In this document: positions 34,290 to 49,888 of the stretch, piece after piece | Layout: every line of letters starts with the position of its first letter | Position numbering within the stretch: position 1 is the first letter of the stretch | DNA from: Amylolactobacillus amylophilus DSM 20533 = JCM 1125 | Lineage (GTDB): Bacteria > Bacillota > Bacilli > Lactobacillales > Lactobacillaceae | Length of the DNA: 64,000 nucleotides | NCBI RefSeq assembly: GCF_001936335.1 | Contig: NZ_CP018888.1 | Coordinates: forward strand, 620,001-684,000 | Direction: 5' to 3' | The notes under the pieces: model-generated | Database searches by the model: none | What the model was told of the DNA's origin: nothing | Seen by the model: the letters and a program-made list of their open reading frames with translations, nothing else | Program-made: the position numbers and the translations under genes

Positions 34290-34519
34290 GATAAATCCCC
34301 CTCTAACAATATTGCCTAAAAAAAATTCAACTGAACAATGTTACCAGATTTTTAAATTCTGCACCAATTTTTTATTCCTGATTATTACCCGGGAAATAAT
34401 CTTAACAGACGACTAAAACAAAGAATTGCGATATAACACGCCTCTAAGGACGCCTTGTTATACCAACATGATATAATACGCTGATGGAACGTGCCACAGA
34501 TGTGCCACTCTCAAATACT

Positions 34520-34556
34520 AATGGAGCCTACCCTCACAGGTAAGCTCCATTTTTTC
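34520..34556 (+). terminator. Hairpin with T-tract at the left end of the element
   Basis: AATGGAGC and GCTCCATT with inner CTACC/GGTA, followed by TTTTTT on the plus strand. It points toward the 3' end of the split regulator gene. Confidence 0.7.
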
Positions 34557-35100
34557 ATTGTAAATTTATAATGTACTGTCCTGACCTTGCCTTGAATTGT
34601 AGTTTGAATTGTTGATTTCGATTTGTCAGAATTACTTTGTGGCTTTTTCCAGCTTTTAATATGAATGGTGCTTGTACTGTCTTACCGTTCAAATTGACAA
34701 GGCGTATTTCTATATCTCCCTGACTTCCATCATCGTTTGTAAGTACATATGATGATTTGAGTAATGATGGCCGGATAAGTGAACTGCCATTCCAGCTAGC
34801 AGTGTGCCATCGTGCTGATGCATGTTGTGAAACGGTCAATACGGTTGATTGATCAGGTGAAATTGTTTGATTCACGGTTTCGGTATTATGATAAAGCAAA
34901 TATAATGACAAACCAAGTACTGCAATAAAAGCTGGCACAATGATTCTCAAAGCTATCTTCCGTTTTCGGTTCAATCGTTGCTCTTTACCCATCTCTTCAA
35001 CCATTTCAGGCTCCTCCTTCAGCAACTGGTCAATAGACATTTGAAGGATTTCGCTCAGAGATACAAGGATATCTAAATCTGGATAATTTCGCCCCGTTTC
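34555..35100 (-). pseudogene. 3' part of the XRE-type membrane regulator gene split by the transposon
   Basis: The frame continues from the transposon edge as TGRNYPDLDILVSLSEILQM, the end of an XRE helix-turn-helix domain, then a charged linker, one membrane helix (IVPAFIAVLGLSLYLLY) and an extracytoplasmic beta-rich domain (IEIRLVNLNGKTVQ, SGQYIINLQ). With the 5' part at 42556-42663 it gives an intact 217-aa protein. An internal ATG at 35040 could make a truncated product lacking the HTH. The outer domain resembles the secreted protein encoded at 42856. Confidence 0.85.
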
Positions 35101-35137
35101 CCTTAGTTAAAGATATTGTTGGGTATCTCAAGATGTG

Positions 35138-36760
35138 TCATTCGATTTTGCCGATAAAGCGGTAGAAGATTTCCACTTCCTGTTCCCGGCTTCCGTCCTC
35201 ACTTTTGACCGCTTCATGGACAAGGATTTTTTCAATCAGCGTATTCAGAAGTTCAGCCGTCAATTCTGTGGGATTGACATACTGTTTCATCAGACCTATC
35301 CACTTTTCAGCGTCAACCGCTGTCTGGGCGGCGGTCTCCATCGCTTCGTGAAGCCGTTCAATTTTTACGTCCAATTCTCGCTGTTCGCCCTGATACTTTT
35401 CGGACAGCATATTGAAATTGTATTCTGTAATGCGTCCGGCAGACCAGTCCTCATACATTTTTGCAAACAGGGTGTCTACTTCTGCTTTGCGCTTTTCCGC
35501 CTTTTTCAGTTCGGCTGTCTGCCGCTTCCTTGCAGTATTGCGTTCCTTGTCGCTGGCGTTAAGTAGCCGTTTCAGAAGTTTGTCCCCATCCTGCTGTGCC
35601 AGCACAGACCAGTATTGCAGACGGGAAAGGACATAGGCGTAAAGCACATCATAGCGGATATAGTGCATGGAACACTGGTGCAATCCTTGCCCGTACTTGC
35701 TACAATGGTAGTGGGCATAGGGATTTTTGTTCTGGCTGTTCATACCATAGGCCAGCGACCAGCCGCAGTCCGCACATTTTACCAGCCCGGAAAATATCTG
35801 TGTTGTGCCGTTCTTCTGCCGTCTGCGCCTGTTGCAAATCTGCTCCTGTACTTGACGGAACACATCTTCGGAAATAATCGCTTCGTGGGTGTTCTCCACA
35901 CGATACCATTCCTCTTTTGGCTTGCGTACTTTCTTCTTGTTTTTGAATGAAATGTTGGTCTGCTTATTGTGGACGCTGTGTCCGATATAGGTTTCCTCTT
36001 TCAGAATACTTTTCACCTGCGCTATCGTCCACGCATAGGCTTTTTCCTCCGGCGCTCCGGCATAGATATTTGCGAAAGTGCCGTATCTCTGGAAATTCAG
36101 CCAGCCGGGAGTAGGTACTTTTTCTTCGACCAAAATCCGTGTAATGCTGGCGGCTCCCCGGCCATGAACGGCAAGGTCAAAAATCTTTTCGATAATCCAC
36201 CTTGTTTCCGGGTCAATCAGAAGATGGCCTTTCTTATCTGGGTCTTTGACATAGCCAAGCGGAGCATAGGCTCCATAGTGTGCGCCATTTGCGAACCGTG
36301 TCCGCATGGCCGCCTTTACCTTTTTGCTGGTCTGGCGGGCGTGCATTTCATTCAGAATGTTGAGGAATGGGGCAAGCTCATTCTCTCCGTTGATGGTGTC
36401 CACATTGTCATTGACAGCGATATAGCGGACGCCTTTGCTGGGAAAGTAGATTTCCGTGTACTGGCCGGTCAGAATGTAGTTTCTGCCTAAGCGGGATAAA
36501 TCCTTCGTAACAACGCAGTTGATTTTCCCGTCCTCAATGTCATCAATCATTCTCTGAAAATCCGGCCTGTCAAAGTTCGTTCCAGACCATCCATCGTCGA
36601 TATATTCATCTATGACATTCAGGCCATGCTCGGCGGCATATTGCCGGAGCATCATGCGTTGTGTCTGAATACTCCCGCTTTCTCCTTGCAGTTCATCGTC
36701 CCGGCTCAATCTCATATAAAGCGCCGTGTTGTAAATCGTAGTATTGTAAGGTTGTTTCAC
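35138..36760 (-). CDS. Large serine recombinase (TndX/TnpX-like)
   Basis: GTG 36760 lies 9 nt after AAGGAGG and gives 540 aa. Residues 10-160 are a resolvase domain with the catalytic Ser in ALYMRLSRDDE and Arg in VTKDLSRLGRNY. A recombinase domain (GYVKDPDKKGHLLIDP), a Cys zinc ribbon (VKCADCGWSLA, HYHCSKYG) and a coiled coil follow. It excises and inserts the transposon through GA dinucleotides. It ends 37 bp from the element edge. An inverted repeat at 36787-36836 precedes it. Confidence 0.92.
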   Translation of the reverse strand: MKQPYNTTIYNTALYMRLSRDDELQGESGSIQTQRMMLRQYAAEHGLNVIDEYIDDGWSGTNFDRPDFQRMIDDIEDGKINCVVTKDLSRLGRNYILTGQYTEIYFPSKGVRYIAVNDNVDTINGENELAPFLNILNEMHARQTSKKVKAAMRTRFANGAHYGAYAPLGYVKDPDKKGHLLIDPETRWIIEKIFDLAVHGRGAASITRILVEEKVPTPGWLNFQRYGTFANIYAGAPEEKAYAWTIAQVKSILKEETYIGHSVHNKQTNISFKNKKKVRKPKEEWYRVENTHEAIISEDVFRQVQEQICNRRRRQKNGTTQIFSGLVKCADCGWSLAYGMNSQNKNPYAHYHCSKYGQGLHQCSMHYIRYDVLYAYVLSRLQYWSVLAQQDGDKLLKRLLNASDKERNTARKRQTAELKKAEKRKAEVDTLFAKMYEDWSAGRITEYNFNMLSEKYQGEQRELDVKIERLHEAMETAAQTAVDAEKWIGLMKQYVNPTELTAELLNTLIEKILVHEAVKSEDGSREQEVEIFYRFIGKIE

Positions 36761-36786
36761 CGTAAAAATCCTCCTTCTAAAGAAAC

Positions 36787-36836
36787 AACCCACGCTTACA
36801 ATACTTTTGCTCTATGGCAATTATATCATAAGCGTG
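36787..36836 (-). promoter_or_regulatory. Inverted repeat before the recombinase gene
   Basis: CCCACGCTTA and TAAGCGTGGG, 10-bp arms with 30 bp between them, lie 27 bp upstream of the GTG start. The spacer contains TATAAT-like sequence. This is a likely operator or promoter hairpin. Confidence 0.55.
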
Positions 36837-36859
36837 GGCGTGTTATCAATGATGGGCTA

Positions 36860-37054
36860 TCAGGTTGAAGCGGCTTTTTCTGCGGTATGCCGCACCACAT
36901 CTACAATCAGATCACCGAGGGGCTTCCCGCCTGCGGCGAAGTGTTCGGAGATTTTTATACGGTTGTTCCCACATACAAAATACTGCGTGCCGTTCTCTGC
37001 TTGTATAACCTGCCCTGTTCGGGGTGTAAAAATATCGCTTTCACTTTTTGCCAT
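36860..37054 (-). CDS. TnpW-like transposon protein
   Basis: ATG 37054 has GGAGG upstream, giving 64 aa. FTPRTGQVIQAENGTQYFVC and IKISEHFAAGGKPLGDLIVD match small TnpW-type proteins encoded beside TndX-like recombinases in clostridial mobilizable transposons. Function is unknown. It lies between the relaxase and recombinase genes, in the same direction. Confidence 0.7.
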   Translation of the reverse strand: MAKSESDIFTPRTGQVIQAENGTQYFVCGNNRIKISEHFAAGGKPLGDLIVDVVRHTAEKAAST

Positions 37055-37126
37055 CCAGTGTCCTCCATATTCAGTTTTCAAGGTACAATGCCGCACAGAG
37101 GCGGCGAAAATTTCTGCTTATATCTA

Positions 37127-38071
37127 TCACCTTTCCTTTACCGTGTGCCGCTGCTGACGTTTCAGTTCCGCCAGTATATCCGGCGGGATACGGTCAACCA
37201 GCCGCTGTAAATTGTCCAGTTCGCTTTTCAGCTTTGCCCGTTCCATCGTATCTTTCATCTTTCCTTTTTCGCTGGCCTTTGCCCTTGCTTCCAACTTCTC
37301 ATTCTCCGCCAGCAGGTCATTGATTGTGACCTTGTACTTTTTCAACTGCCCGGAGAAATTCTCCATCTGCGGGAACCACTTTTTCAGCATGGAGAGGGCT
37401 TCCTCTTTTTTCTTTCCGGCGTTCAGCGGGTTAATGCCGTCCAGTGTGGCTTCAATGGCTCTTGCCTGCCGGGAGAGGGAAACCGCCTGTTTGAAAAGCC
37501 GGGTGGGGATATGCTTCCGGCCTGTCCTGCTGGCGCTCTCCCCACGCTCCAAGTCAGGATATTTCTCCACCATATAGGCGTGAAAATCGTCCTGCCACTT
37601 CGTCAGGTTTGCCCGGTTGCCGATAATCTCCTTTGCACACAGGCGGTTGTCCTTTGTCAGCGGAACAAAGGTCAAATGCAGGTGGGGCGTTTTCTCGTCC
37701 ATGTGTACCACCGCCGACACGATATTTTCCCGTCCTACCCGGCCAATGAGGAAGTCCGCCGCCCTCTGGAAAAACGCCTGTATCTCCTTTGGGGATTTCC
37801 CCTTGAAAAACTCCGGGCTGGCAGTTACCAGCGTATCGACAAACCGTGTGCTGTCCTTGCGGGTTCGGCACCCGGCCTGTTCAATGCGGTTTTGAATGAA
37901 ATGATAGTACCTGCCCTCTGGCTTGACGATATGAAAGTTGTACTTGCTCCGGCTTGTGTCAATGTCGGGGTTGCTGGCGTATTGTTCTTTCTGTCTTTCG
38001 TGATGGGCTTCCAGCGGCCTTGCCGGGTTGCCCTTGTGCTTCTCAAACCGCAAAATTGCGTGTTGTGCCAT
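37127..38071 (-). CDS. mobA: MobV-type relaxase (Mob/Pre family)
   Basis: 314 aa. N-terminal HAILRFEKHKGNPARPLEAHHE fits motif I of Pre/Mob relaxases, and the metal-binding motif III is HMDEKTPHLHL near residue 150. A coiled-coil tail (residues 220-310) follows. It would nick the transposon oriT and allow mobilisation by a helper conjugative element. Confidence 0.88.
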   Translation of the reverse strand: MAQHAILRFEKHKGNPARPLEAHHERQKEQYASNPDIDTSRSKYNFHIVKPEGRYYHFIQNRIEQAGCRTRKDSTRFVDTLVTASPEFFKGKSPKEIQAFFQRAADFLIGRVGRENIVSAVVHMDEKTPHLHLTFVPLTKDNRLCAKEIIGNRANLTKWQDDFHAYMVEKYPDLERGESASRTGRKHIPTRLFKQAVSLSRQARAIEATLDGINPLNAGKKKEEALSMLKKWFPQMENFSGQLKKYKVTINDLLAENEKLEARAKASEKGKMKDTMERAKLKSELDNLQRLVDRIPPDILAELKRQQRHTVKER

Positions 38072-38254
38072 TCTGCTCCTTTCCCCATTCCTTTCCTATC
38101 CGGGGTTTTCCACAGGGAAAATCCCGCAGAAATTAGCTCGGATAGGATTGGAATGGATAGAATATAAATAAATCTTTTTAATCTTTGTATTTCTATATAC
38201 CGTCCGGTTTTCGTACTTCCGGGGAGTGATTTCCTCACTTCATAAGTACGGTTT

Positions 38255-38650
38255 TCAGCCCTCCGGCGTACCAGAACCGGATTTCTTGAAGTCGGTGTTT
38301 GGAACCGCTTCATAGGATTTTGGGAAAATGCGGTTGGGTTTTCCACAGCCCTGCTTCTGGATCTCCACCAGCCCGGCGTATTGCAGTTCCCGCAGGGTGT
38401 TTACCGCTTTCTGCCGCCCACAGTGGAGCAGGTCAACCACCTCGCAGATGGGATAGTACAGATAAATCCGTCCGCAATCATCCGCCCACCCATTCTTGCG
38501 GGATAACTCTGTCCGGCGCAGGATAAAGGCGTACAGAACCTTTGCCTCGTTGGACAAGGGCTTGAATGTGGGGGCTTCAAAGAGGAAATTCGGGAGCCGG
38601 GTGAAGCTGAACGCCTTTTCCGGCTGATGGATATAGATGGTATTTGTCAT
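38255..38650 (-). CDS. Replication initiator protein A-like (RepA_N domain)
   Basis: 131 aa. PNFLFEAPTFKPLSNEAKVL and YAFILRRTELSRKNGW are the RepA_N signature of Firmicutes plasmid and transposon initiators, with a winged-helix (VDLLHCGRQKAVNTLRELQ). Full plasmid RepA proteins are over twice as long, so this is the short transposon-type version. It lies upstream of mobA in the same direction. Confidence 0.8.
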   Translation of the reverse strand: MTNTIYIHQPEKAFSFTRLPNFLFEAPTFKPLSNEAKVLYAFILRRTELSRKNGWADDCGRIYLYYPICEVVDLLHCGRQKAVNTLRELQYAGLVEIQKQGCGKPNRIFPKSYEAVPNTDFKKSGSGTPEG

Positions 38651-38761
38651 AGTGCGTTTTGTGGACGGTTAGAAGCCCGTTTTCCGGGGCGGGCGATACT
38701 TTATACCACCAGCCCCGGTTTGGGGCTTGCGAAGCCTGATAAATCAAGGCTTTTTTCGCTC

Positions 38762-39175
38762 CTAACTGTCCACAGCAGACCTCCTTTTCCGTTCACTTTC
38801 TGTTTTCTGCCGCCTGTGAACTCTGGCGGCACAGCCGGGGCAGTATTTTGCCCGGTTGGATTTGGGGACGAACACACCGCCGCAGACCTCACAGCGTTTC
38901 AAGTCCTTATCCCGGAAAATCTCCGCTTCCAGCGTCCCGTCCAGCGGCAAGACCGCCCAGCGGAACCACTTACAGCAGACCGAGAAAGAAATCGTCTGCG
39001 GACAGGTGCAGGTGTCCCCATCGTCAAGGACAATGCAGTTGCCGTCCTCACAGCAACAGCACTCCCGGCGTATCAGGCTGGCCGCCTGTTTTCTCTGCGC
39101 CGGGGTCATGCGGTAAAGGGAACCGTCCGGCCTGCGTTCCAGCGGCGGCAAGTCTTTATAGGGGTTATCTCTCAT
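38762..39175 (-). CDS. Cysteine-rich VLP-family protein
   Basis: ATG 39175 with GGAGG 6 nt upstream gives 137 aa. It contains RRECCCCEDGNCIVLDDGD and a second Cys set (RCEVCGGVFVPK, KYCPGCAARVHR), which would bind zinc. This is the Cys_rich_VLP pattern common in clostridial mobilizable transposons. Function is not known. Confidence 0.75.
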   Translation of the reverse strand: MRDNPYKDLPPLERRPDGSLYRMTPAQRKQAASLIRRECCCCEDGNCIVLDDGDTCTCPQTISFSVCCKWFRWAVLPLDGTLEAEIFRDKDLKRCEVCGGVFVPKSNRAKYCPGCAARVHRRQKTESERKRRSAVDS

Positions 39176-39410
39176 GCGTTCCCTCCATTTTGCTTTCCGT
39201 TGCCGTTCTCCCCGAAAAGGTTTCCTGCCCCATTCCTGCGGCGTGTTCCGGCGTTGGCACGCTCCTCGCAACTTCGGGACATTTTGTCCCGAAGTCCGAC
39301 TCCTTGCGGTGCTTCCCCAGCCGGGGTATTCCTTTTCGGACGGTCATTCTGTTTTCAAGGTGCCGTCCATCGATGAACTACCCTAAGTCTACACGAAAAA
39401 AATGCAATTC

Positions 39411-39490
39411 CCGGAATATTGCGAGAATTGCATTTTGATGAAGTTTACACTTTGGAAATTGCATTTTTGCAATCATTCTGTATAATGGAA
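39411..39490 (+). promoter_or_regulatory. Promoter and operator repeats of the transposon XRE repressor
   Basis: AATTGCATTTT occurs at 39425 and 39457, and TGCAATT occurs inverted at about 39401. TTGCAT, 16 bp and TATAAT (39480-39485) form a promoter. These repeats are probable repressor sites. Confidence 0.55.
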
Positions 39491-39513
39491 GTATGCGGAG
39501 GAGGTGCGTATCT

Positions 39514-40317
39514 ATGGCTTTACCCGGAACGCCCGGACAGCGGATTTCCGATTTATGCAACGGGAACCACATCACACAAAAGGAACTTGCGGAGAAGATA
39601 GGCGTTTCCGCTTCCCAGTTGAGCCGCATTGTCAGCGGCGAAACAAGAACGGTCAGCAGTGATATTCTCATAGGTGTGGCAAAGGAATTTAAGGTATCGA
39701 CAGACTACATACTGGGCTTGTCTACCGTGAGCGTTCGTAAAAGCTACGATATTTCTGAATTAGGCTTGTCCGAGGGAGCCGTGAGGGGGCTTGTGACGGG
39801 TGCTGTTGATGTGCAAATCCTCAACCGCCTGTTGGAACACAGGAATTTTCCTAAGCTGATAGATTTGATACGGATTTATTTTCAGGATACGGCGGCAAAG
39901 GGCATAACAGCAAGAAACCAGCTTATCGAGATGGCAACGGCTTCCCTGTCCGACCTGATGAAAGAACACCCGGAACACCGGGCAGAAGCGAAGCAGGATT
40001 TACAGCTTTTGAACGCCCAAAAGATAGGGGAACATGAAGCGGAGATTGAAAAAATCAAAAATGTGTTCCTGGCTATCCTGCGGGACATTAAGAAAGACAT
40101 TGACAACGGGGAACAGCCGGGAGAAGCTGTGACCGCCGCTATGTTCCAAGCCATGCGGGACGCACTGGCGGAACAGAAACAAAAACCACTTTCCATTGAC
40201 GATGTAACGGCGATGATAGCTGGACAGATCGGACAGCTTACACCGATGGATAAAGAAACTGTTGAAATGTTCCAGCAGTTTGCGAAGAAGATGATTGAGC
40301 AGGCAGGAACAAAGTGA
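39514..40317 (+). CDS. XRE-family regulator of the transposon
   Basis: ATG 39514 behind GGAGGAGG gives 267 aa. Residues 8-62 form an HTH (ITQKELAEKIGVSASQLSRI). The long C-terminal part is helical with a coiled coil near EAEIEKIKNVFLAILRDIKK. It is divergent from the mobilisation genes and cotranscribed with the next kinase-like gene. Control of transposon transfer is inferred. Confidence 0.82.
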   Translation: MALPGTPGQRISDLCNGNHITQKELAEKIGVSASQLSRIVSGETRTVSSDILIGVAKEFKVSTDYILGLSTVSVRKSYDISELGLSEGAVRGLVTGAVDVQILNRLLEHRNFPKLIDLIRIYFQDTAAKGITARNQLIEMATASLSDLMKEHPEHRAEAKQDLQLLNAQKIGEHEAEIEKIKNVFLAILRDIKKDIDNGEQPGEAVTAAMFQAMRDALAEQKQKPLSIDDVTAMIAGQIGQLTPMDKETVEMFQQFAKKMIEQAGTK

Positions 40318-40345
40318 TAAATTTGAATTGTGAGGGAAAATACAG

Positions 40346-40891
40346 ATGAATCAAGGAAGAATTATTGTGATTACAGGCTCACCGGGGACAGGAAAAACAA
40401 CAACTGCGTCAATTGTCGCAAAGGAATCAGATATGGATAAATCAGTGCATATGCACACCGATGACTTTTTTCATTACTTAAGCAAAGGCGCAATACCACC
40501 ACATTTGCCAGAATCCAACGAGCAAAATCTGGTTGTCATTGAAGCCTTTTTAGAAGCTGCAAAGCGATATGCTCGTGGCGGATATGATGTAATTGTAGAT
40601 GGGATTGTCGGGCCATGGTTTTTGGAGCCATGGAAAGCTCTTGCCCAAGAAGATTACGAGGTACACTATATTGTATTAAGAGCGAGTAAAAAAGAAACTA
40701 TGAAGCGAGCTGTGGAACGCTCAAAATTAGATAGAAAAACAAATATTGAATTAGTGGAAACAATGTGGGAGCAATTTTCCGGTTTGGGAGTATATGAATC
40801 AAATGTCATAGACACAACTACATTCACAATTAAAGATACGGTTTCCGCAATAAAAGAAAGAGTTGCATGTGGGACGTCTTTACTATCTTAG
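40346..40891 (+). CDS. P-loop kinase-like ATPase
   Basis: 181 aa. Walker A GSPGTGKTT is at residues 10-18, followed by HTDDFFHYL (kinase-type Asp) and DVIVDGIVGPWFLEPW, with a lid rich in Arg/Lys (KKETMKRAVERSKLDRK). It resembles small-molecule kinases such as shikimate kinase or chloramphenicol phosphotransferase. The substrate is unknown; a resistance role is possible but unproven. It is 28 bp after the XRE gene. Confidence 0.7.
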   Translation: MNQGRIIVITGSPGTGKTTTASIVAKESDMDKSVHMHTDDFFHYLSKGAIPPHLPESNEQNLVVIEAFLEAAKRYARGGYDVIVDGIVGPWFLEPWKALAQEDYEVHYIVLRASKKETMKRAVERSKLDRKTNIELVETMWEQFSGLGVYESNVIDTTTFTIKDTVSAIKERVACGTSLLS

Positions 40892-41066
40892 ACATTCCCA
40901 TTTGTCAGGAAGATAGCAAAGCCAGCCGAGCCAGTCAACGGTCAAGATGAACGGCGCATTTCATGCGCCGCCGTTGACAGTCCCGCCCGTCTTTGCTAAA
41001 GGGTAATCAAGGCGGGAAAGCCCTAAAATGGCTTCACACCTATTTCAATAATTGGAGGAGATAAAA

Positions 41067-41933
41067 ATGAGATCAGAAAAGGAAGTTTATGATATTGTTT
41101 TGAATTTTGCAAAAACAGACAAACGCATTCGCATGGTTACTTTGGAAGGATCTAGAACAAATACAAATATTCCGCCTGATGATTTTCAGGATTTTGATAT
41201 TACTTTTTTTGTTACGGATATGGACAGCTTCACAAGTGATGATAAATGGCTAGATATATTTGGTGAAAGGTTGATTCTGCAAAAGCCGGAAGATATGGAA
41301 TTATTTCCAGCTGTAGAAAAGGGATTTTCATATTTAATGCTGTTTACTGATGATGTTAAGATAGATTTAACTTTGCTGCCGCTGGAACTGATAGACGAGT
41401 ATTTTACATGGGATAAACTGGTAAAGTTACTGTTGGATAAAGACAACCGTATCGTAAAGCCGCCAATACCAACGGATATAGACTACCACTTGCAGAAGCC
41501 TACTCAAAGAATGTTTGACGATTGCTGTAATGAATTTTGGAATACTACAACATATGTAGTAAAGGGCTTATGCCGCAAAGAAATTCTTTTTGCTATTGAC
41601 CATATGAATGATATAGTACGAAAAGAATTGCTTCGCATGATTTCCTGGCTGATTGGTATCAAACAGGGATTTCATTTCAGTTTGGGAAAAAACTATAAAT
41701 TTATGAAGCAATATGTCCCAGAGGAATTGTGGGAACGACTTATGTCCACTTATAATATGGATTCCTATCCCCATATGTGGGAATCCTTTGAACAATGTAT
41801 GGCATTGTTCCGGGAGGTTTCGTCAGAAGTGGCATGCCAGTTGGATTACCAGTATCCACTATATGATGAAAAAATCAGTAATTATGTGATTCGGCAAAAG
41901 AAAAAATATGGCATTGAAGATGATAACAAATAA
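41067..41933 (+). CDS. Aminoglycoside 6-adenylyltransferase ANT(6) (streptomycin resistance)
   Basis: ATG 41067 follows GGAGG and gives 288 aa, close to ANT(6)-Ib (285) and shorter than ANT(6)-Ia (302). The nucleotidyltransferase motif is VTLEGSRTNTN followed by DFQDFDITFFVTD, with the third Asp in DVKIDLTLLP. HFSLGKNYKFMKQY and the C-terminal helical domain match AadE proteins. It adenylates streptomycin at O6. It is cargo of the transposon. All key residues are present, so it is probably functional. Confidence 0.93.
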   Translation: MRSEKEVYDIVLNFAKTDKRIRMVTLEGSRTNTNIPPDDFQDFDITFFVTDMDSFTSDDKWLDIFGERLILQKPEDMELFPAVEKGFSYLMLFTDDVKIDLTLLPLELIDEYFTWDKLVKLLLDKDNRIVKPPIPTDIDYHLQKPTQRMFDDCCNEFWNTTTYVVKGLCRKEILFAIDHMNDIVRKELLRMISWLIGIKQGFHFSLGKNYKFMKQYVPEELWERLMSTYNMDSYPHMWESFEQCMALFREVSSEVACQLDYQYPLYDEKISNYVIRQKKKYGIEDDNK

Positions 41934-42555
41934 AATTTTTTCAATCGAAAAAATTTATTTTGATTATTCAATTTTGAAAAACTGAATACCTCAAAATCAG
42001 AAAGAGAGCGGCCAAGCACTTTGAGGGATTGGCCGCCTTGTCCACCCATCCAGCGGGACAGCGGGCGGAGGTCAAGGCCGGGTGTAAACCCGTTCATTTC
42101 AGCCTTGACGGTTGCCCGTTGTCCTGCTACTTTTCCGGGAGTGTGGCCACAACTTCGGGACACTTTGTCCACAAGTTGGAGCGTAGGACGAGGAACTGGG
42201 GCTTTCATATACGCCCTGTCTGCTGATGAGTCCAGACCTGCGCTTGCGGCTCCACGCCACGCAAGCACAGCCCTGTTTTCCTGCCGCTTCAAATGCCCTT
42301 GCCCTCCCCGGCGGCAACGGCATTTTCACGGCAACGCCGGCAGAGCGTATAACACACTACACTTTGCTTCGCAAAGTCGTGTGCCAAATGGGGGCGTTGC
42401 CCCCTTTGGAAACCCCCACAAGAAAAGGCGGTACGCTACCCCTCCACGGGGCGCATACCGCCTTTTCTTGTTATCCAGCCCTCCGGCTGTATCGGTTGAG
42501 CAAAAGTCCGCGTGGGATTGATGTGGTATCTTTAACTTTGGGAAACTCCAACCTC
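41934..42555. other. Non-coding right end of the transposon
   Basis: I find no convincing gene here. A GC-rich block with several inverted repeats (ACTTTGCTTCGCAAAGT at about 42361, GGGGGCGTTGCCCCC at about 42390) is a candidate oriT or other recombinase/mobilisation site. A long hairpin AAGAAAAGGCGGT/ACCGCCTTTTCTT (42420-42471) is a bidirectional terminator. The element end lies at 42555. Confidence 0.55.
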
Positions 42556-42663
42556 CCAGTTTGAAATTGCCGATCTAGATACAGAGAGCAACTCCGCTAG
42601 TCGAGCTTGTGTGATTTTTAATTCTAGTCGTCGTTGCTTTAGTCGCTCTCCAAAGGTTGTCAT
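42556..42663 (-). pseudogene. 5' part of the split XRE-type regulator gene
   Basis: ATG 42663 has GGAGG 7 nt upstream. The 36 codons encode TTFGERLKQRRLELKITQAR and LAELLSVSRSAISNWE, the first four helices of an XRE HTH. The frame then crosses into the transposon and stops after a few codons. The rest of the gene is at 34555-35100. The gene was divergent from the bacteriocin operon and probably controlled it. Confidence 0.88.
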
Positions 42664-42855
42664 TTCAAATCCTCCATTATGGTTATCGCAAAATTTGACC
42701 GTGTAGTCTAGATAGCATCTGTGACTCTGTAATTTACGGTGATTTTTGGCATGACACAAACTCTGTCATTACTGATACATAATCCTTCTTGAATATACCC
42801 ACTATTAAAAACGCTTGCAAGATGATATTCTTTAGCCATACAGGGGGGAATCAAT

Positions 42856-43269
42856 ATGAGGTGTAAATTCTTGTGTGCTACCTTGCTTTCCACGGTTTTA
42901 CTTAGTGTTTCGGTGAGCGGATCACAATCGGTTAATGCTACCACGGATGGTGAGCAAGCCACTCAATCTACCGCAACGGCGATGATTTACTGGAGTAGTA
43001 CAGCATATCTAGTTACGAATGCATACTCTAATGTTACGTCATCAAATAACATTTTCAATGACAGCCCAGTTGTTACAAACAATGCCGGAAATAAAGGGGC
43101 TATCAAAGTTAAAATCGTTAATTCGAATGGCGCACAGGTAGGATCAGTCAAAACCATTGGTAAGGGTAAAACGGTAAGACTGGATAGCATTCCTTGGAAT
43201 AGCGGAACATATACTCTCAAGGCTATGGCCGTTTCCTCTGCTGGTACTTACGCAATTAAGATTGACTAA
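42856..43269 (+). CDS. Secreted protein of the bacteriocin operon
   Basis: 137 aa behind GGGGGGAA. A Sec signal peptide ends near residue 29 (LLSTVLLSVSVSGSQSVNA). The mature part is Ser/Thr/Asn-rich and beta-rich: GAIKVKIVNSNGAQVGSVKT, LKAMAVSSAGTYAIKID. This resembles the outer domain of the split XRE-type regulator (GDIEIRLVNLNGKTVQAP, SGQYIINL). It might be a ligand, immunity factor or second bacteriocin component. Nothing in the sequence decides this. Confidence 0.7.
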   Translation: MRCKFLCATLLSTVLLSVSVSGSQSVNATTDGEQATQSTATAMIYWSSTAYLVTNAYSNVTSSNNIFNDSPVVTNNAGNKGAIKVKIVNSNGAQVGSVKTIGKGKTVRLDSIPWNSGTYTLKAMAVSSAGTYAIKID

Positions 43270-43413
43270 TTCGCAGTACCGCGTGCTGATTTCTTCTTGT
43301 AGTTGTTGATGGGGCAAAGGCAACGTTTGGAGGAGATACGGCTGAGAATACGGAACAGAGACCGTGTATTAAACTTTTTTAGTGGAACACATTCACACAT
43401 GGAGGGACATGTT

Positions 43414-43713
43414 ATGAAGAGTGCAAAGAAATTGATGACGGCGTTTGCTGTCACGGCTGGTCTGCTGGGAACAGGCGTAGGTAGTGCTGTTATGGCAGCA
43501 AGTGTTGGCGGTGGCACATGGAACTATGGTGTCGGCTTGACTGGCACATTCGGATACTCCGACTATCTTCATAATTCCAAGACACATAGTGCTTCGGTCG
43601 GTAGAACAAAGAGCGATTGCAACAAGGTCACCAAGACCAAAGGCGTTTGGGCACAATCAAAGTATACCAAGATTCCACCTACAGGCTTAAACTACTGGTG
43701 GAGTGTTAGCTAA
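43414..43713 (+). CDS. Lactococcin 972-family bacteriocin precursor
   Basis: ATG 43414 follows GGAGG and gives 99 aa. A Sec signal (KKLMTAFAVTAGLLGTG, cleavage near VMAAS) precedes a mature peptide with GGGTWNYGVG, YSDYLHNSKTHSASVG and GVWAQSKYT, ending YWWSV. These positions match lactococcin 972 (GTWxxGYG, YxHxSKTHSATV, AGVWAKA, YYxFW). Lactococcin 972 binds lipid II and blocks septum formation. The mature peptide has one Cys. The transporter genes follow directly. Confidence 0.9.
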   Translation: MKSAKKLMTAFAVTAGLLGTGVGSAVMAASVGGGTWNYGVGLTGTFGYSDYLHNSKTHSASVGRTKSDCNKVTKTKGVWAQSKYTKIPPTGLNYWWSVS

Positions 43714-43796
43714 CTAAATCTGTTGGCAAGTAAAAGACGACTCTCGCATATGTGAAAGTGCGCCTTTCGTATTTATTGGGTTAAGGGGTGATGATC

Positions 43797-45911
43797 TTGA
43801 AAAAAATTCTATCACTGTGTGTGTTCTTAGTAGTTATATGCTCCGCACTGATCACCGTTAATATTTTCCAAACAAAAGACGTGATCCGAACAAACACTAT
43901 AGAGAAGACTGATGATTCTTTCAACTTCTATGTCAGTGATAGTCAGGTTGCGGTCAAAGATGAAATCAAGGAATTTTCGCGGCTGTCTAATCACTATAAG
44001 GTGAATGTCTTCCTTAGTACGACAGATTCAAATGGCGCCACTGTGAAATCAGTCGTATATCAGCGTAGCAGCTTTCCAAAAGATAATTTTGGATTGACAT
44101 CGAACAACGTATTCCCTGATAAGGACGATTACTACGCAAGTTTTGTAACGGGAAGCCAGCACCAAATTGGTACTATTCCAGTTTTTTACAGCAAAAACCA
44201 TGTGATTCTCCAGACGCTTTCACGTTATCATAAAGATAATAACCGAACGGCGAACGGGACATTCACTATTGTTGGCGCCAATAGCACAGATAAAGCGAAA
44301 ATAATTCATCGCCTAAGTCAATTTTTTAGTGTGACGCCAGCTCAACTTGTGACCAAAAACGTTGAACAGCGAACAGAAATGTTCAACAAAAATCTTGGGA
44401 TATTCTTATTGCTCTTAGCAATATCGATACTTATTTTCCTCTTGATTGTTGTCTACCTGCCAATATCGAAAATGCACACCATTGGCGTGATGAAACTCAA
44501 CGGCTGGAAAAACGGCGCGATTATTTGGAGTTTCGTCCGCAATGGCATGGTGACACTGTTGGTTACTAGCGTTATGACTGATATCGTGATTGTGATTTTA
44601 TATCACAATTTCTTACCGCCTACCCTGTTGCCAATATTGATTGTAGGACAATTTGCACTAGTTGCATTGTATTTTCTCGCAAACCTTTCAGTGTATCTAC
44701 TGGTTCACAAGACCACCATTCGTGATTTGCTGAAAAATCACTTCAACTTTACGCTCGGAACGTGGCTATCATTCGGACTAAAAGCACTGTTAACACTTGT
44801 CACCACGGTACTGCTTGTTCAAACATCTGCTGGTATCACTGAATCGCTTCGCCAAGCACAGCAGGTTAAAGATTGGCAACGTGACGGCGAAGTATTGACG
44901 ATTGACAAAGTAATGTTGGCAGATCAAGACCACGCAACACGTACCCTAACAAAACTGTATGCAGACCTAGATCAAAATACCGACACAATGTACGTGCGTA
45001 GTACAGTGGTTAATCCATCTAAAGAATTATCCTCAAATGCAACAACTCCCGAGTTTGCTCCGAATGAACGCTATCCAATTATGACCGTGAATGAAAATTA
45101 CATTCGGAATAAAGTGCCGCAACTCAGGTCACTGTTAAAGCAAAAATCAACTGAACGCGTCTACTTGATTCCTCAAAAATATAAAAATCATCACGCAATG
45201 ATGCACTTGGTACAGAGCTTTCAGTACAACTTGCTAAATAGCGAACAACAGTCGCATACTAGTATCAAAAAAATGAAGGTGAAGTTGATTTATTATAATG
45301 ATCGACAAGCCAAAGTGTCAGTCTTTGCTTACGACTTCAATATCAAGCAAAGGCTTCAGTCTCCCATTTTTTCAATCGTTACACCAAGCAATATGACGTT
45401 CTTTGATAAGGAGATTTTATCCGATACAAGTGGTGCCAATCCTTTGAAAATTTCCCAAAGCAAATCAACAATGCGTACCATAAAGCACGCAATTACAAAA
45501 GCAGATGCGGGTTACCTAAATATTCATTTTGCGACAATGAATTCAATACTATCGGATTCTTTGACTTCTATCAATCAGGGTTTAGCATTCTTTGCCCTCA
45601 TGCTGGTAACAGTCTTCTGCCTAAATTTGATTGCCTCCATTTTCTTACTCATGTGTATCATCCAAAATAAAGCACGCTCACTTGCAATCAAGAAAATGCT
45701 GGGAATAAAGTTAGTTGATCGATACAAGTGGGAAGGATTAGTCGCCTTGGCTTTATACGCAATTCAGCTTTTGGTAGTGTTGCTATTTGGAAGCTCAAAA
45801 TTAATACTGATTTTTGCGCTGATTATGATTGCTTTGGACGCACTAATCTCCAGTGGCTTCATTTCGATTGTTGAACGGCGTAGTCTTCCAGCAATGCTGA
45901 AAGGAGAATGA
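43797..45911 (+). CDS. Bacteriocin-associated membrane protein (DUF1430, FtsX-like)
   Basis: TTG 43797 lies 6 nt after AAGGGGTG and is preferred to the GTG/ATG codons that overlap that site. The product has 704 aa. Membrane segments occur near the N-terminus (ILSLCVFLVVICSALITV), around residues 205-225, 260-300, 325-345 and at the C-terminus (three helices), with two large outer domains. This is the standard partner of lactococcin-972-type peptides and forms an immunity or export ABC system with the next gene. Confidence 0.88.
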   Translation: MKKILSLCVFLVVICSALITVNIFQTKDVIRTNTIEKTDDSFNFYVSDSQVAVKDEIKEFSRLSNHYKVNVFLSTTDSNGATVKSVVYQRSSFPKDNFGLTSNNVFPDKDDYYASFVTGSQHQIGTIPVFYSKNHVILQTLSRYHKDNNRTANGTFTIVGANSTDKAKIIHRLSQFFSVTPAQLVTKNVEQRTEMFNKNLGIFLLLLAISILIFLLIVVYLPISKMHTIGVMKLNGWKNGAIIWSFVRNGMVTLLVTSVMTDIVIVILYHNFLPPTLLPILIVGQFALVALYFLANLSVYLLVHKTTIRDLLKNHFNFTLGTWLSFGLKALLTLVTTVLLVQTSAGITESLRQAQQVKDWQRDGEVLTIDKVMLADQDHATRTLTKLYADLDQNTDTMYVRSTVVNPSKELSSNATTPEFAPNERYPIMTVNENYIRNKVPQLRSLLKQKSTERVYLIPQKYKNHHAMMHLVQSFQYNLLNSEQQSHTSIKKMKVKLIYYNDRQAKVSVFAYDFNIKQRLQSPIFSIVTPSNMTFFDKEILSDTSGANPLKISQSKSTMRTIKHAITKADAGYLNIHFATMNSILSDSLTSINQGLAFFALMLVTVFCLNLIASIFLLMCIIQNKARSLAIKKMLGIKLVDRYKWEGLVALALYAIQLLVVLLFGSSKLILIFALIMIALDALISSGFISIVERRSLPAMLKGE

Positions 45912-45913
45912 AA

Positions 45914-46558
45914 ATGATTAAACTAGAGCATGTTACAAAAAAGTATAAAACCAAAATTGTGCTGGACAACTTCTCCTTATCAGTTGAAGCGGGAGAAATG
46001 ATTGCCATTACGGGACCAAGTGGATCAGGTAAGAGCACAATCTTAAACATCTTGGGGTTAATTGAATCATTTGATTCTGGCACCTACAAACTGTTCGATC
46101 AATCCAATATCAAACCGAATAGTAGAACTGCCTTGTCAATTATCAGAGAGGATATCAGCTATCTGTTTCAAAATTTTGCGCTTATTGAAGACGAAACAGT
46201 CGAATATAATCTGATGCTGGGAATTAAATATCTGCATGCCACCAAGGCGGACAAAGTCGCGATAATTAACGATGCACTTCAAAAAGTTGGCTTACAAGGA
46301 TACGGTAAAAGCCCAATTTTTGAATTGTCTGGGGGGCAACAGCAACGTATCGCTGTGGCACGTGCACTTATCAAGCCAAGCAAGCTGATTCTTGCCGATG
46401 AACCCACAGGATCGTTGGACCAGAAAAATCGTGATGAAATCATGCAGTTACTAAAGGCAATGAATAAGCAAGGCAAGACCGTTATTGTTGTCACACACGA
46501 TGATGAGGTTGCCAATCAATGCCAGCGAATTGTTCATCTTTCATCGATTAGTGGCTAA
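45914..46558 (+). CDS. Bacteriocin ABC transporter ATPase
   Basis: ATG 45914 is 7 nt after AAGGAG; an ATG at 45908 is too close to it. The 214-aa product has Walker A GPSGSGKST, Q-loop YLFQNFALIED, signature LSGGQQQR, Walker B LILADEPTGSLDQ and H-loop VVTHDDE. It belongs to the MacB/LolD-like group that pairs with DUF1430 permeases. Its start overlaps the permease stop region, so the two are coupled. Confidence 0.92.
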   Translation: MIKLEHVTKKYKTKIVLDNFSLSVEAGEMIAITGPSGSGKSTILNILGLIESFDSGTYKLFDQSNIKPNSRTALSIIREDISYLFQNFALIEDETVEYNLMLGIKYLHATKADKVAIINDALQKVGLQGYGKSPIFELSGGQQQRIAVARALIKPSKLILADEPTGSLDQKNRDEIMQLLKAMNKQGKTVIVVTHDDEVANQCQRIVHLSSISG

Positions 46559-46661
46559 CCGCCTCGTGTTCAATATTGTCCGATGAAGAGCTTGTATTCC
46601 TCGAATCAATCACTTCGTTAACATTGAATTTGGAAAACAGATATTAGTTTAGTAATCAACG

Positions 46662-46706
46662 TACACCAATGGATGACATCATCTGGAGGTGTATTTTTAT
46701 TTTCCA
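46662..46706 (+). terminator. Terminator of the bacteriocin operon
   Basis: TACACC and GGTGTA with an inner GATG/CATC stem, followed by TTTTTATTTT. Confidence 0.75.
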
Positions 46707-46819
46707 AAAACATTAAGATTTTGCAAACAATCAAGTTTCTGTTTCAAATTTTGATGAAAATTCCGTCTTTAAGTAGTGAGGGTAATAAATCTCAAATCTT
46801 CTTGAAAGGAGGTAGCCTC

Positions 46820-46925
46820 GCCGCCGCGCGCGGCGTGCAGCGCGAAAGCCGCTAGCGTGAGCGGCGGCGGTCGGCGTTAGCCGGCCGCCTCAAGCCCCCA
46901 GTATCTAATAGGGGGGCAAATACAA
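46820..46925 (+). other. oriT: Tn916-like origin of transfer next to the relaxase
   Basis: CCCCC (46895-46899), AGTATCTAATA and GGGGG (46911-46915), then GCAAATACAAG, closely resemble the nic-site hairpin of Tn916-family oriT. A GC-rich set of small hairpins lies just before it (GCCGCTAGCGTGAGCGGC at about 46849). The relaxase gene starts 110 bp downstream. The rest of 46559-47026 has no gene that I can support. Confidence 0.75.
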
Positions 46926-47026
46926 GTAACAAGAAATCCGACGGTAGGCATAAAGCGCCCGCAGCAAGGCCTTGCCGCATAGGCAGAATGCCGAATTGCT
47001 GTTAGGACGCATAGAAAGGAGCTAAC

Positions 47027-48307
47027 ATGCTCAAAGACTTGAATTTGATTGGCGGCATGACAAACAAAGATTGGCTTGATCAAGTCCACGACGAGATGCG
47101 CGCCAATGGTATTACACAAGGCCAACTCGCCGATATGGCTAATTACAGCCGATCACACCTGAATCAACTGCTGGGTCGCAAGAAGCCACTCAACGATAAA
47201 GCCCGATTAGAACTATCATTGGCGTTGCGTGCACTAACCGGTCAGAATAATCTGGACGTCTGTATTGACTATCTCGGCGTCACTTTCAAGACGCATGACT
47301 ACGAAGAATTGATTAACGAATTGTTCCAAATCAGCCCGACCCATTTCAACCTGCACGACGGCGCTCATTATGGCTATTCAGCAACCCTGATATGCGGTGA
47401 AATCAAGATTATGTTATCGCCTTACCAAGACGTGGATGCCGAAGACTACAACCCCAAAGACGACAGTGGCACAATGGTTGAGCTTAAAGGTCAAGGGTGC
47501 CGCTATGTCGAATCATATCTGCGATCACAGAACCGGACTTGGTATGACTTCTTGGAAGCGTGTATCAAACTGGATTGCCACTTCACCCGACTTGATTTAG
47601 CTATCAACGACCGCAACGGCTTGCTAGACGTATCAACGCTGATTGAGAAGTGCGACCGTGATGAATTCAGCTCGCGCTTTCGTGGGTTCAGGGATAACCG
47701 CACCAAACAGTGGCACGCCTCTGGACGCACGTTGTATCTCGGCTCACCACAAAGCGAGGTCAATTTCTGTATCTATGACAAGGCGTTTGAGCAACATCAG
47801 AAACACCCAGAAATCGCCATTGAAGACCAACCAATCCGGACCCGCTTTGAAGTGCGACTACGCCGCGAGCGTGCCGCCACCGCGGTTGAACATCTATTAG
47901 CGACGCATGATCCTGAACAAGTCGTGTTCGGCATCATCAATCAGTATTTGTGCTTTCTCACCCCCAGCCACAAACCGAAAAGCGAGTGGGCGTTAGATCC
48001 CCGTTGGGCGGCATTCATCGGCAACAATCGGGATAAGTTGCGCCTGTCCACTAATCCGGAGCCATTGAACTATGACCACATTACTCGATGGTTAAGAAAG
48101 CAAGTCGCACCCTCACTCAAGATGTTGCAGGTGATTGACCAGTACAACAACACAAACGAACTCAAGGCTATCATCGACAGTGGTAAATTGACGCAACGCC
48201 ACTGGGACGTGATCCACCATTTTCAGCACCAACGCAATGGTATTATGACAGATTCCAAACATCGTGAGAAATCAAAAAAGAGCGACTACGCCGACCAAAG
48301 CAAGTAG
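47027..48307 (+). CDS. MobT-type relaxase / replication initiation factor (Rep_trans) with HTH
   Basis: 426 aa behind AAAGGAG. Residues 15-80 are an XRE-type HTH (MRANGITQGQLADMANYSRS). Residues 90-350 are a Rep_trans domain like Tn916 Orf20: LDVCIDYLGVTFKTHDYEEL, CHFTRLDLAINDRNG, NFCIYDKAFEQ and TRFEVRLRRERA (catalytic Tyr in a YDK motif). It would nick the adjacent oriT for mobilisation by an ICE and may support rolling-circle replication. Confidence 0.88.
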   Translation: MLKDLNLIGGMTNKDWLDQVHDEMRANGITQGQLADMANYSRSHLNQLLGRKKPLNDKARLELSLALRALTGQNNLDVCIDYLGVTFKTHDYEELINELFQISPTHFNLHDGAHYGYSATLICGEIKIMLSPYQDVDAEDYNPKDDSGTMVELKGQGCRYVESYLRSQNRTWYDFLEACIKLDCHFTRLDLAINDRNGLLDVSTLIEKCDRDEFSSRFRGFRDNRTKQWHASGRTLYLGSPQSEVNFCIYDKAFEQHQKHPEIAIEDQPIRTRFEVRLRRERAATAVEHLLATHDPEQVVFGIINQYLCFLTPSHKPKSEWALDPRWAAFIGNNRDKLRLSTNPEPLNYDHITRWLRKQVAPSLKMLQVIDQYNNTNELKAIIDSGKLTQRHWDVIHHFQHQRNGIMTDSKHREKSKKSDYADQSK

Positions 48308-48384
48308 CCACCCTTCACAGATAAGATATGGGTTCTATCTGGTTTGATTATCTCACTCCCACCAAACTTTAGGAAGTGATTTGA

Positions 48385-48648
48385 TTGAATATTAACGCAC
48401 CAGCACAGCCAGTCTTCCTGACAATGACTAGAGCTGACCTTATCAAGCTGGGATACAGTCCAGCGCAAGCAAGCCGTATCATCAAAATGGCAAAAGAGTT
48501 GTTGCTCAAACAAGGCCTTGGATGGTACGGTAAGAAAGGCGTAGACCGTGTTCCAGTGGAAGCAGTAGACGCAGTATTAGGCTTGAAACTAAGCCAACTT
48601 GAGGGTGCACCAAGTGGCCTTTCCGCAGTTAAGGAGGAACTATCTTGA
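48385..48648 (+). CDS. DUF3173 protein (excisionase-like)
   Basis: TTG 48385 follows AGGAAGTGA. The 87-aa product, with LTMTRADLIKLGYSPAQASR and IIKMAKELLLKQGLGWYGKK, matches DUF3173. Such proteins precede tyrosine integrases in ICEs and IMEs and have a helix-turn-helix-like fold; an excisionase role is inferred from this position. Its stop overlaps the integrase start by 3-4 bases. Confidence 0.75.
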   Translation: MNINAPAQPVFLTMTRADLIKLGYSPAQASRIIKMAKELLLKQGLGWYGKKGVDRVPVEAVDAVLGLKLSQLEGAPSGLSAVKEELS

Positions 48649-49778
48649 CTACGAAAGACCATATTACCAAGCAAGCGGACGGCACTTTTAGCTTCCGCGT
48701 GAGCTTAGGAACTGACAAACGGACTGGCAAGCGAATTCAAAAGCGTGCCAGCGGCTTCAAAACGAAAACGGAGGCGAAAAAAGCAAGACTAGCCATGTTG
48801 GCGGCTGGCGTTACTGATGACCAAGACATCAAGCAGACCCGCTTCGGGCCATTCATGGAGGACGTGTTCAAGCCTTGGTACAAAACCCAAGTGAAGCCAC
48901 GGACTTACCGGCAACGCGTAAACATGATGGGCAGTGAGCATCTCAAGGTGTTTACCGAGATCGCGATTGACCAAATTCGACCGATCGATATTCAAAGGTG
49001 GCAAGTGCAGATTCTAAAAGTCTGCAAGCAATCTTATGCGCGAACTGTCAATATTCTGATTGGTCAAGTGTTAGAACGCGCCAAAACCTTAGGCATCATC
49101 TCCGAAAATGCAGTGCGCATCGTCGGTCTGATTCCTAAGAAGAAAGCGAAGATCAAGTTCTGGACACGGGAAGACTTCCAAAAAGTGATTGCCAAAACTG
49201 GCACAGACACTTACGAGAAATACTTTGAGCGCACGATGTTGTGGTTCATGTTCATGTCAGGCTTACGAAGTGGTGAAGCGCGGGCGTTAAAGTGGACAGA
49301 CGTTGATCTCGAAGCTAAGACGGTGAACATCAACAAAACCATGGACTATCACAACCGCAACTGGTTTGAAACGCCAGAGCCAAAGACCGCGGCTAGTCGT
49401 CGAACAGTCGCGCTTGATGATGATACGATTGCGTGTCTAGGCGCGTGGCAGGTCGAACAAGCAACGATGGTGCAATCCGAGTGGGTATTCTCACTCAATG
49501 GGATTCCCTGCCCTGACCGGCGCTTCTTGAGTATCGTGAGCGCTTATAGCACACTCGCAGAAGTTGAGCGAATTACTGTGCATGGCCTCCGTCACTCGCA
49601 TGTGTCGCTGTTGATCAGCCTCGGTGAAAATCCACTCCAAATCAAAGAACGTCTGGGGCATGAAGACATCGAAACGACACTCGGCACTTACGGTCATCTC
49701 TACCCGAACAGTAACTTTGAAGTCGCAAAAAAGCTCAACGGGATCTTCTCCGAGGAGGTGCCCAATGAGCCAAAATAA
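48645..49778 (+). CDS. int: Tyrosine integrase of the mobilizable element
   Basis: TTG 48645 follows AAGGAGG and gives 377 aa. An N-terminal AP2-like arm-binding domain (TFSFRVSLGTDKRTGKRIQK) and SAM-like core domain precede the catalytic domain, which has Arg in SGLRSGEARALKW, HGLRHSHVSLLI and the Tyr in TTLGTYGHLYP. It is at the right end of the element with candidate arm repeats just after it. Confidence 0.93.
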   Translation: MTTKDHITKQADGTFSFRVSLGTDKRTGKRIQKRASGFKTKTEAKKARLAMLAAGVTDDQDIKQTRFGPFMEDVFKPWYKTQVKPRTYRQRVNMMGSEHLKVFTEIAIDQIRPIDIQRWQVQILKVCKQSYARTVNILIGQVLERAKTLGIISENAVRIVGLIPKKKAKIKFWTREDFQKVIAKTGTDTYEKYFERTMLWFMFMSGLRSGEARALKWTDVDLEAKTVNINKTMDYHNRNWFETPEPKTAASRRTVALDDDTIACLGAWQVEQATMVQSEWVFSLNGIPCPDRRFLSIVSAYSTLAEVERITVHGLRHSHVSLLISLGENPLQIKERLGHEDIETTLGTYGHLYPNSNFEVAKKLNGIFSEEVPNEPK

Positions 49779-49888
49779 TTTGAAAAGGGTCAAAACTGTG
49801 CCACCGTAAAATTGGTGGTGCTAGAAACGTTGATACCACGGGACGTGCACGAGATGTGTCATTGTTCCCGGGAAAATTCTTATAACAT

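Follow-up and report, generated by a model that had tools for sequence, protein, structure and literature searches.

Why would a lactococcin 972-type bacteriocin operon begin with the gene of a secreted protein that resembles the outer domain of the membrane-bound regulator encoded divergently from it? We address this question for a window of 64,000 nucleotides from the genome of Amylolactobacillus amylophilus DSM 20533 and refer to the secreted protein as SP and to the outer domain as OD. The explanation that we favor, tentatively and short of calling it probable, is a mobile two-gene module in which the regulator reads a cue outside the cell and sets the expression of SP, which in turn feeds back.

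Lipid II is bound by lactococcin 972, a member of a family with a beta-sandwich fold (PMC10269533, PMC11796350, PMC4055356, PMC9964109). The operons of lactococcin 972 and streptococcin B share a layout in which two genes with presumed roles in immunity and transport lie downstream of the bacteriocin gene, and the excerpts of these sources used here name no SP-like gene (PMC4055356, PMC11796350). The same excerpts place orf4, a gene without assigned function, upstream of the lactococcin 972 cluster on pBL1 and describe control of streptococcin B by ComE and a ComR-type regulator, unlike the arrangement in the window (PMC4055356, PMC11796350). In L. cremoris, expression of Llmg2447, a putative ECF anti-sigma factor, results in resistance to Lcn972 (PMC9964109). 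Transmembrane transcription regulators (TTRs), which exert control from the membrane as one-component proteins, include BcrR (bacitracin resistance) and BreG (bacteriocin synthesis), both tabulated for lactobacilli and enterococci; TTRs resemble the window's regulator in being one-component and membrane-based, and no secreted paralogue of an outer domain is mentioned in the part of that source used here (PMC10269533). The outer-domain cue of one-component membrane regulators is often hard to find, and our literature search, which was of limited coverage, found no described case of a secreted protein paired with a paralogous membrane regulator.

The bacteriocin operon, the split regulator gene and nested mobile elements

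The gene order given by the first-pass annotation (SP, bacteriocin, DUF1430 membrane protein, and ATPase) was borne out by the open reading frames, coordinates included (Table 1). The bacteriocin exceeds the curated cut-offs of its family (PF09683, 54.5 bits vs. 22; TIGR01653, 50.9 vs. 32.1), and the membrane protein stays below those of its two models (TIGR01654, E 7.5e-41 and 140.4 bits vs. 189.35; DUF1430, 22.8 bits vs. 28.2). With bacteriocin, membrane protein, and ATPase following one another, the operon has the layout of the lactococcin 972 family.

The divergent membrane-bound XRE regulator that had been described is present as a gene but not intact: it lies in two parts, which we searched separately, with a mobile element of around 7.4 kb that carries ant(6) between them. 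Because of this split, the circuit formed by SP and regulator is probably broken, and thus non-functional, in this strain. An intact relative of the regulator is found in Lacticaseibacillus zhaodongensis, where SP is 98% identical and the whole operon is present. This relative has the TTR layout of an HTH_3 domain (E 1.9e-14) and a helix (residues 2–39 of the modelled part, judged hydrophobic by eye and not with a membrane predictor), so that by its architecture it is a TTR and would be predicted to act from the membrane.

The resistance element that splits the regulator is itself nested within what is probably an integrative mobilizable element, as indicated by a MobT-like relaxase and an integrase together with the bounds of similarity to relatives and a word repeated at both ends (Table 1). 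Integrases and relaxases related to those of the window also adjoin regulators with an XRE domain and an OD (XRE-OD regulators) in genomes G180 and G133.

Table 1. Features of the bacteriocin locus, with positions counted from the first nucleotide of the window.
Feature	Coordinates	Strand	Evidence and remarks
SP, secreted protein, 137 aa	42856-43269	+	N-terminal signal-peptide-like stretch (judged by eye, no predictor) and beta-sandwich domain (model)
Lactococcin-972-family bacteriocin	43414-43713	+	PF09683, E 1.8e-14; TIGR01653
Bacteriocin-associated membrane protein, DUF1430/TIGR01654-like	43788-45911	+	Below both cut-offs
ABC transporter ATPase	45908-46558	+	TIGR03608, above its cut-off
Palindrome TGACA-N7-TGTCA, candidate operator	42752-42768		Sequence comparison and shuffles
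Split XRE regulator, HTH part	~42540-42663 (inner end approximate)	-	HTH_3, E 4.2e-9
Split XRE regulator, membrane and outer-domain part	34558-35106	-	Open frame; first residues may be the element's
Nested mobile element inside the regulator gene	35107-42537 (ends approximate)		Large serine recombinase, Mob_Pre, RepA_N, ant(6)
MobT-like relaxase	47027-48307	+	343.2 bits, below the cut-off of 600; PF02486 above its cut-off
Tyrosine integrase	48645-49778	+	PF00589
Probable integrative mobilizable element	34388-49875		Start of similarity to L. zhaodongensis (34388) and end of similarity to the G133 element (49875); CCCGGGAAA at both ends

Relationship between SP and the outer domain

The resemblance between SP and the regulator's OD that the first-pass annotation had noticed is supported in agreement by sequences, profiles, and structural models, the latter with moderate confidence. 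With SP as query in its own genome, the sole other match at E ≤ 1 was the outer part of the regulator (2.5e-4), and BLASTP gave E 3e-7 in a single comparison of the two. Profile–profile comparison joined SP and OD over 82 columns with 97.6% probability and E 4.6e-12 (8 + 12 sequences), smaller profiles gave E 2.1e-8 (6 + 4 sequences) and 7.9e-12 (6 + 8), and the OD profile recovered SP from its own genome at 8.8e-9. None of 1,000 shuffles in either direction came near the real scores (30.2 bits vs. a largest shuffled value of 10.9, and 27.3 vs. 12.5 the other way). Both proteins were modelled as similar beta-sandwiches (SP: mean pLDDT 60, with blocks from residue 71 onward at 66–87; OD: mean pLDDT 82, with blocks from residue 51 onward at 77–94), and their strand order looks alike with moderate confidence when the models are compared without superposition. 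Sequences and models together support a domain type common to the secreted protein and the membrane-bound regulator.

Fold searches with SP and OD gave no clear match: The best Z scores were 9.5 and 8.4, respectively, with many unrelated rows nearby, and the best Foldseek hits had E 3.4e-2 and 3.3e-4. The folds compared include Ena pilin, PirA, GOLD, and collagen-binding domains, and a family outside this listing is possible. Searching the PDB by sequence returned nothing convincing. We also considered SP as a relative of lactococcin 972 and rejected this idea at hhalign probabilities of 1.0% with the SP profile and 0.4% with the OD profile.

SP and OD differ in conservation by around twofold, with a mean identity of 67% for SP vs. 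34% for OD over the same 21 pairs. An insert of around 10 residues (AYSNVTSSNN), strongly conserved in SP and missing from the OD, belongs to the best-conserved stretch of SP, residues 50–71, where 14 of 22 positions are invariant (vs. 19 of 62 at residues 76–137). Both observations count against plain mimicry of the OD by SP and favor a conserved target of SP beyond it. Each SP might be expected to resemble its own partner's OD most closely if the two were matched, and one out of seven does (L. zhaodongensis). SP and OD identities correlate at 0.75 over the 21 pairs, but this value is driven by three close relatives, and we therefore drew no inference about co-evolution.

Occurrence of the outer domain

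OD matches were found in 45 of 397 genomes of the window's family at E ≤ 0.01 (many of them weak and over the membrane helix), in 15 of 398 genomes of the class at E ≤ 0.001, and in 43 of 261 genomes of the order of G862 at E ≤ 1e-6; the 35 genomes from the family of G448 yielded two weak matches, mainly to the membrane helix. Among the 47 matches in the order of G862, 41 are covered by the 40 loci that we examined (two of which repeat L169 and L170). An ECF-sigma-like gene lies just upstream of the OD gene at 32 of these 40 loci, in the form of two open frames at five of them (L192, L194, L213, L218, and L227), and 31 of the 32 show a zinc-finger pattern, with a zf-HC2 match in every case. 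Of the remaining eight loci, L208 has an XRE regulator next to SP; the other seven have neither a sigma gene nor the pattern, and two of these (L201 and L209) are cut by contig ends. The zf-HC2 anti-sigma factors of ECF sigma factors hence share the OD with the window's regulator and differ in their output part, and no SP is adjacent to them at the loci examined.

Since the OD occurs on two output parts as unlike as an XRE domain and a zf-HC2 anti-sigma factor, it is best read as a sensor domain, and its neighbors suggest that it may sense envelope stress. In G398 (L172, 5962–8710), an XRE-OD regulator lies beside genes of the XpaC and TelA families, and in both G180 and G133 a second XRE-OD regulator and an ABC transporter operon are encoded divergently. 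L049 (2736–3131) codes for a membrane-anchored OD protein of 132 aa and has no SP match.

These settings bear on the view that SP and OD bind a common envelope ligand, with SP serving as carrier or decoy and thereby tuning the regulator. Their similar fold would be consistent with it, and both the OD of anti-sigma factors and the XpaC/TelA setting of G398 would fit envelope stress; however, conservation within SP peaks in the region of the insert that is missing from the OD, and we consider a common ligand unlikely.

SP loci, a candidate operator and the proposed module

SP is encoded at nine loci: the window, L. zhaodongensis, L. jixianensis (where the contig ends near SP), Lapidilactobacillus gannanensis (with an in-frame stop in SP), the Paenibacillus polymyxa plasmid pSC2 (a second record of equal length also matched), Alkalicoccobacillus porphyridii, G1194, G1122, and G1123. 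A weak match in G037 (E 4.1e-4) within an open frame of 4,039 residues was dropped from this count, and no relative was found in phage records (searched with SP and OD) or viral contigs (searched with SP). A membrane-anchored OD protein is adjacent at eight of the nine loci, which supports the view that the two belong together. Five of these partners are XRE regulators divergent from SP (window, where it is split, L. zhaodongensis, L. jixianensis, L. gannanensis, and G1194), and three are proteins without HTH encoded just downstream of SP (pSC2, G1122, and G1123, with around 15 bases between the genes in the latter two). With a secreted paralogue next to it so regularly, and with anti-sigma factors that share the domain, the ligand of the OD can be sought directly. 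The SP homologue of pSC2 (L008, 5989–6273) lacks annotation in its record, and no in-frame signal peptide was seen.

The pair is carried on an integrative element, on one small (4.7 kb) and one large plasmid, and in regions of phage-like character. The first 127 bases of the 4,841-base G1194 contig are repeated at its end, and the contig therefore represents a circle of 4,714 bases; this plasmid carries Rep_1, Mob_Pre, the regulator, and SP, and otherwise only ORFs of less than 70 aa and a Mob end piece. The pair is accompanied by ParB-like, RuvC-like, and LexA-like genes in G1122 and by a C-5 cytosine methylase in G1123; both regions appear phage-like, short of proven prophages, and likeness to the pSC2 proteins suggests that they are from Paenibacillus. 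Judged by these contexts, SP makes up one half of a mobile module in its own right, distinct from lactococcin 972 operons. The pair, which the first-pass annotation had proposed to seek beside other lcn972 operons, does recur beside a second one, at the near-identical L. zhaodongensis locus; among the relatives searched this locus is the only one besides the window with a lactococcin 972 gene beside SP. At 67 other lactococcin 972 loci, most with around 6 kb per side and some shortened by contig ends, neither SP nor OD was matched at E < 0.05 (best matches 0.65 and 0.057, respectively), and SP as a general companion of this bacteriocin was rejected. Within a sample of 395 genomes from the order, 58 contained PF09683, and L. 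zhaodongensis is not among these matches, presumably because it was not drawn.

A circular plasmid with the pair as its main cargo, and pairs that lack any DNA-binding domain and lie near phage-like genes in two regions, would suit an SP that is itself an effector (e.g., bacteriocin-like and acting via its insert), with the membrane-anchored OD protein protecting the maker and, where it has an XRE domain, also adjusting expression. The company of a bacteriocin in the window and the stronger conservation of SP than OD point the same way, and the conserved target of SP beyond the OD keeps this reading close behind our best explanation. We nevertheless hold it to be rather unlikely: No activity is known for SP, the OD of anti-sigma factors has no SP at the loci examined, unlike an immunity protein, and no profile links SP to lactococcin 972. 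Less likely still is paralogy alone, with SP secreted for an unrelated function and merely under the regulator's control. Contact between SP and OD is so far hypothetical, and A. porphyridii has SP and no OD protein in the stretch examined, but adjacency at eight of nine loci extends across distant hosts and partners with and without HTH.

Among 10 regions compared upstream of regulator genes, five contain the sequence GACA-N7-TGTC, a candidate operator, at a distance of around 90 bases, vs. 0.022 expected per 10 regions from mononucleotide shuffles. These five are the window, L. zhaodongensis, L. jixianensis, and the second regulators of G180 and G133, i.e., three lineages when the window and L. 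zhaodongensis, and likewise G180 and G133, are counted as one; the exact sequence is absent in L. gannanensis, G1194, G398, and the first regulators of G180 and G133. The 17-base form occurs in the genome of the window once exactly and twice with two mismatches, and the reversed control never does.

In the proposed circuit, one gene encodes a membrane-anchored regulator predicted to have its XRE DNA-binding domain inside, a single membrane helix, and the OD outside, and the divergent gene encodes SP as a putatively secreted protein of the same domain type. The regulator would most likely bind the palindrome in the shared promoter region; the OD would read a surface cue, through which the regulator would set SP expression, and SP would feed back extracellularly by binding the OD or altering what it senses. 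In the window, the module precedes the lactococcin 972 operon on the integrative element and may thereby have gained control of the bacteriocin. The genes, their relatedness, their adjacency in other genomes, and the palindrome are observed parts of this circuit. We favor it because SP and OD are related and adjacent at eight of nine loci, because the OD serves XRE as well as zf-HC2 outputs, and because the palindrome so exceeds its shuffled expectation. Several findings count against it: conservation is higher in SP than in the OD of its partner, contrary to expectation for a signal matched to a receptor; only one of seven SPs is closest to its own partner; three partners (pSC2, G1122, and G1123) have no DNA-binding domain; the exact palindrome is missing in five of ten regions, two of them beside SP (L. 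gannanensis and G1194); and promoter-like sites are at chance level (3 found vs. 2.5 expected).

It is conceivable, if improbable, that mobile elements communicate in this way, with a folded secreted protein instead of a peptide being read by a membrane regulator via a paralogous domain and allowing an element to sense neighbors with the same element. If SP is indeed a cue or an effector, it would be part of a small, self-contained module spread by plasmids, integrative elements, and phage-like regions. At L046 (8126–13592) and L048 (881–6097), an ABC operon whose small final gene has no Pfam match is divergent from a second XRE-OD regulator with the same palindrome.
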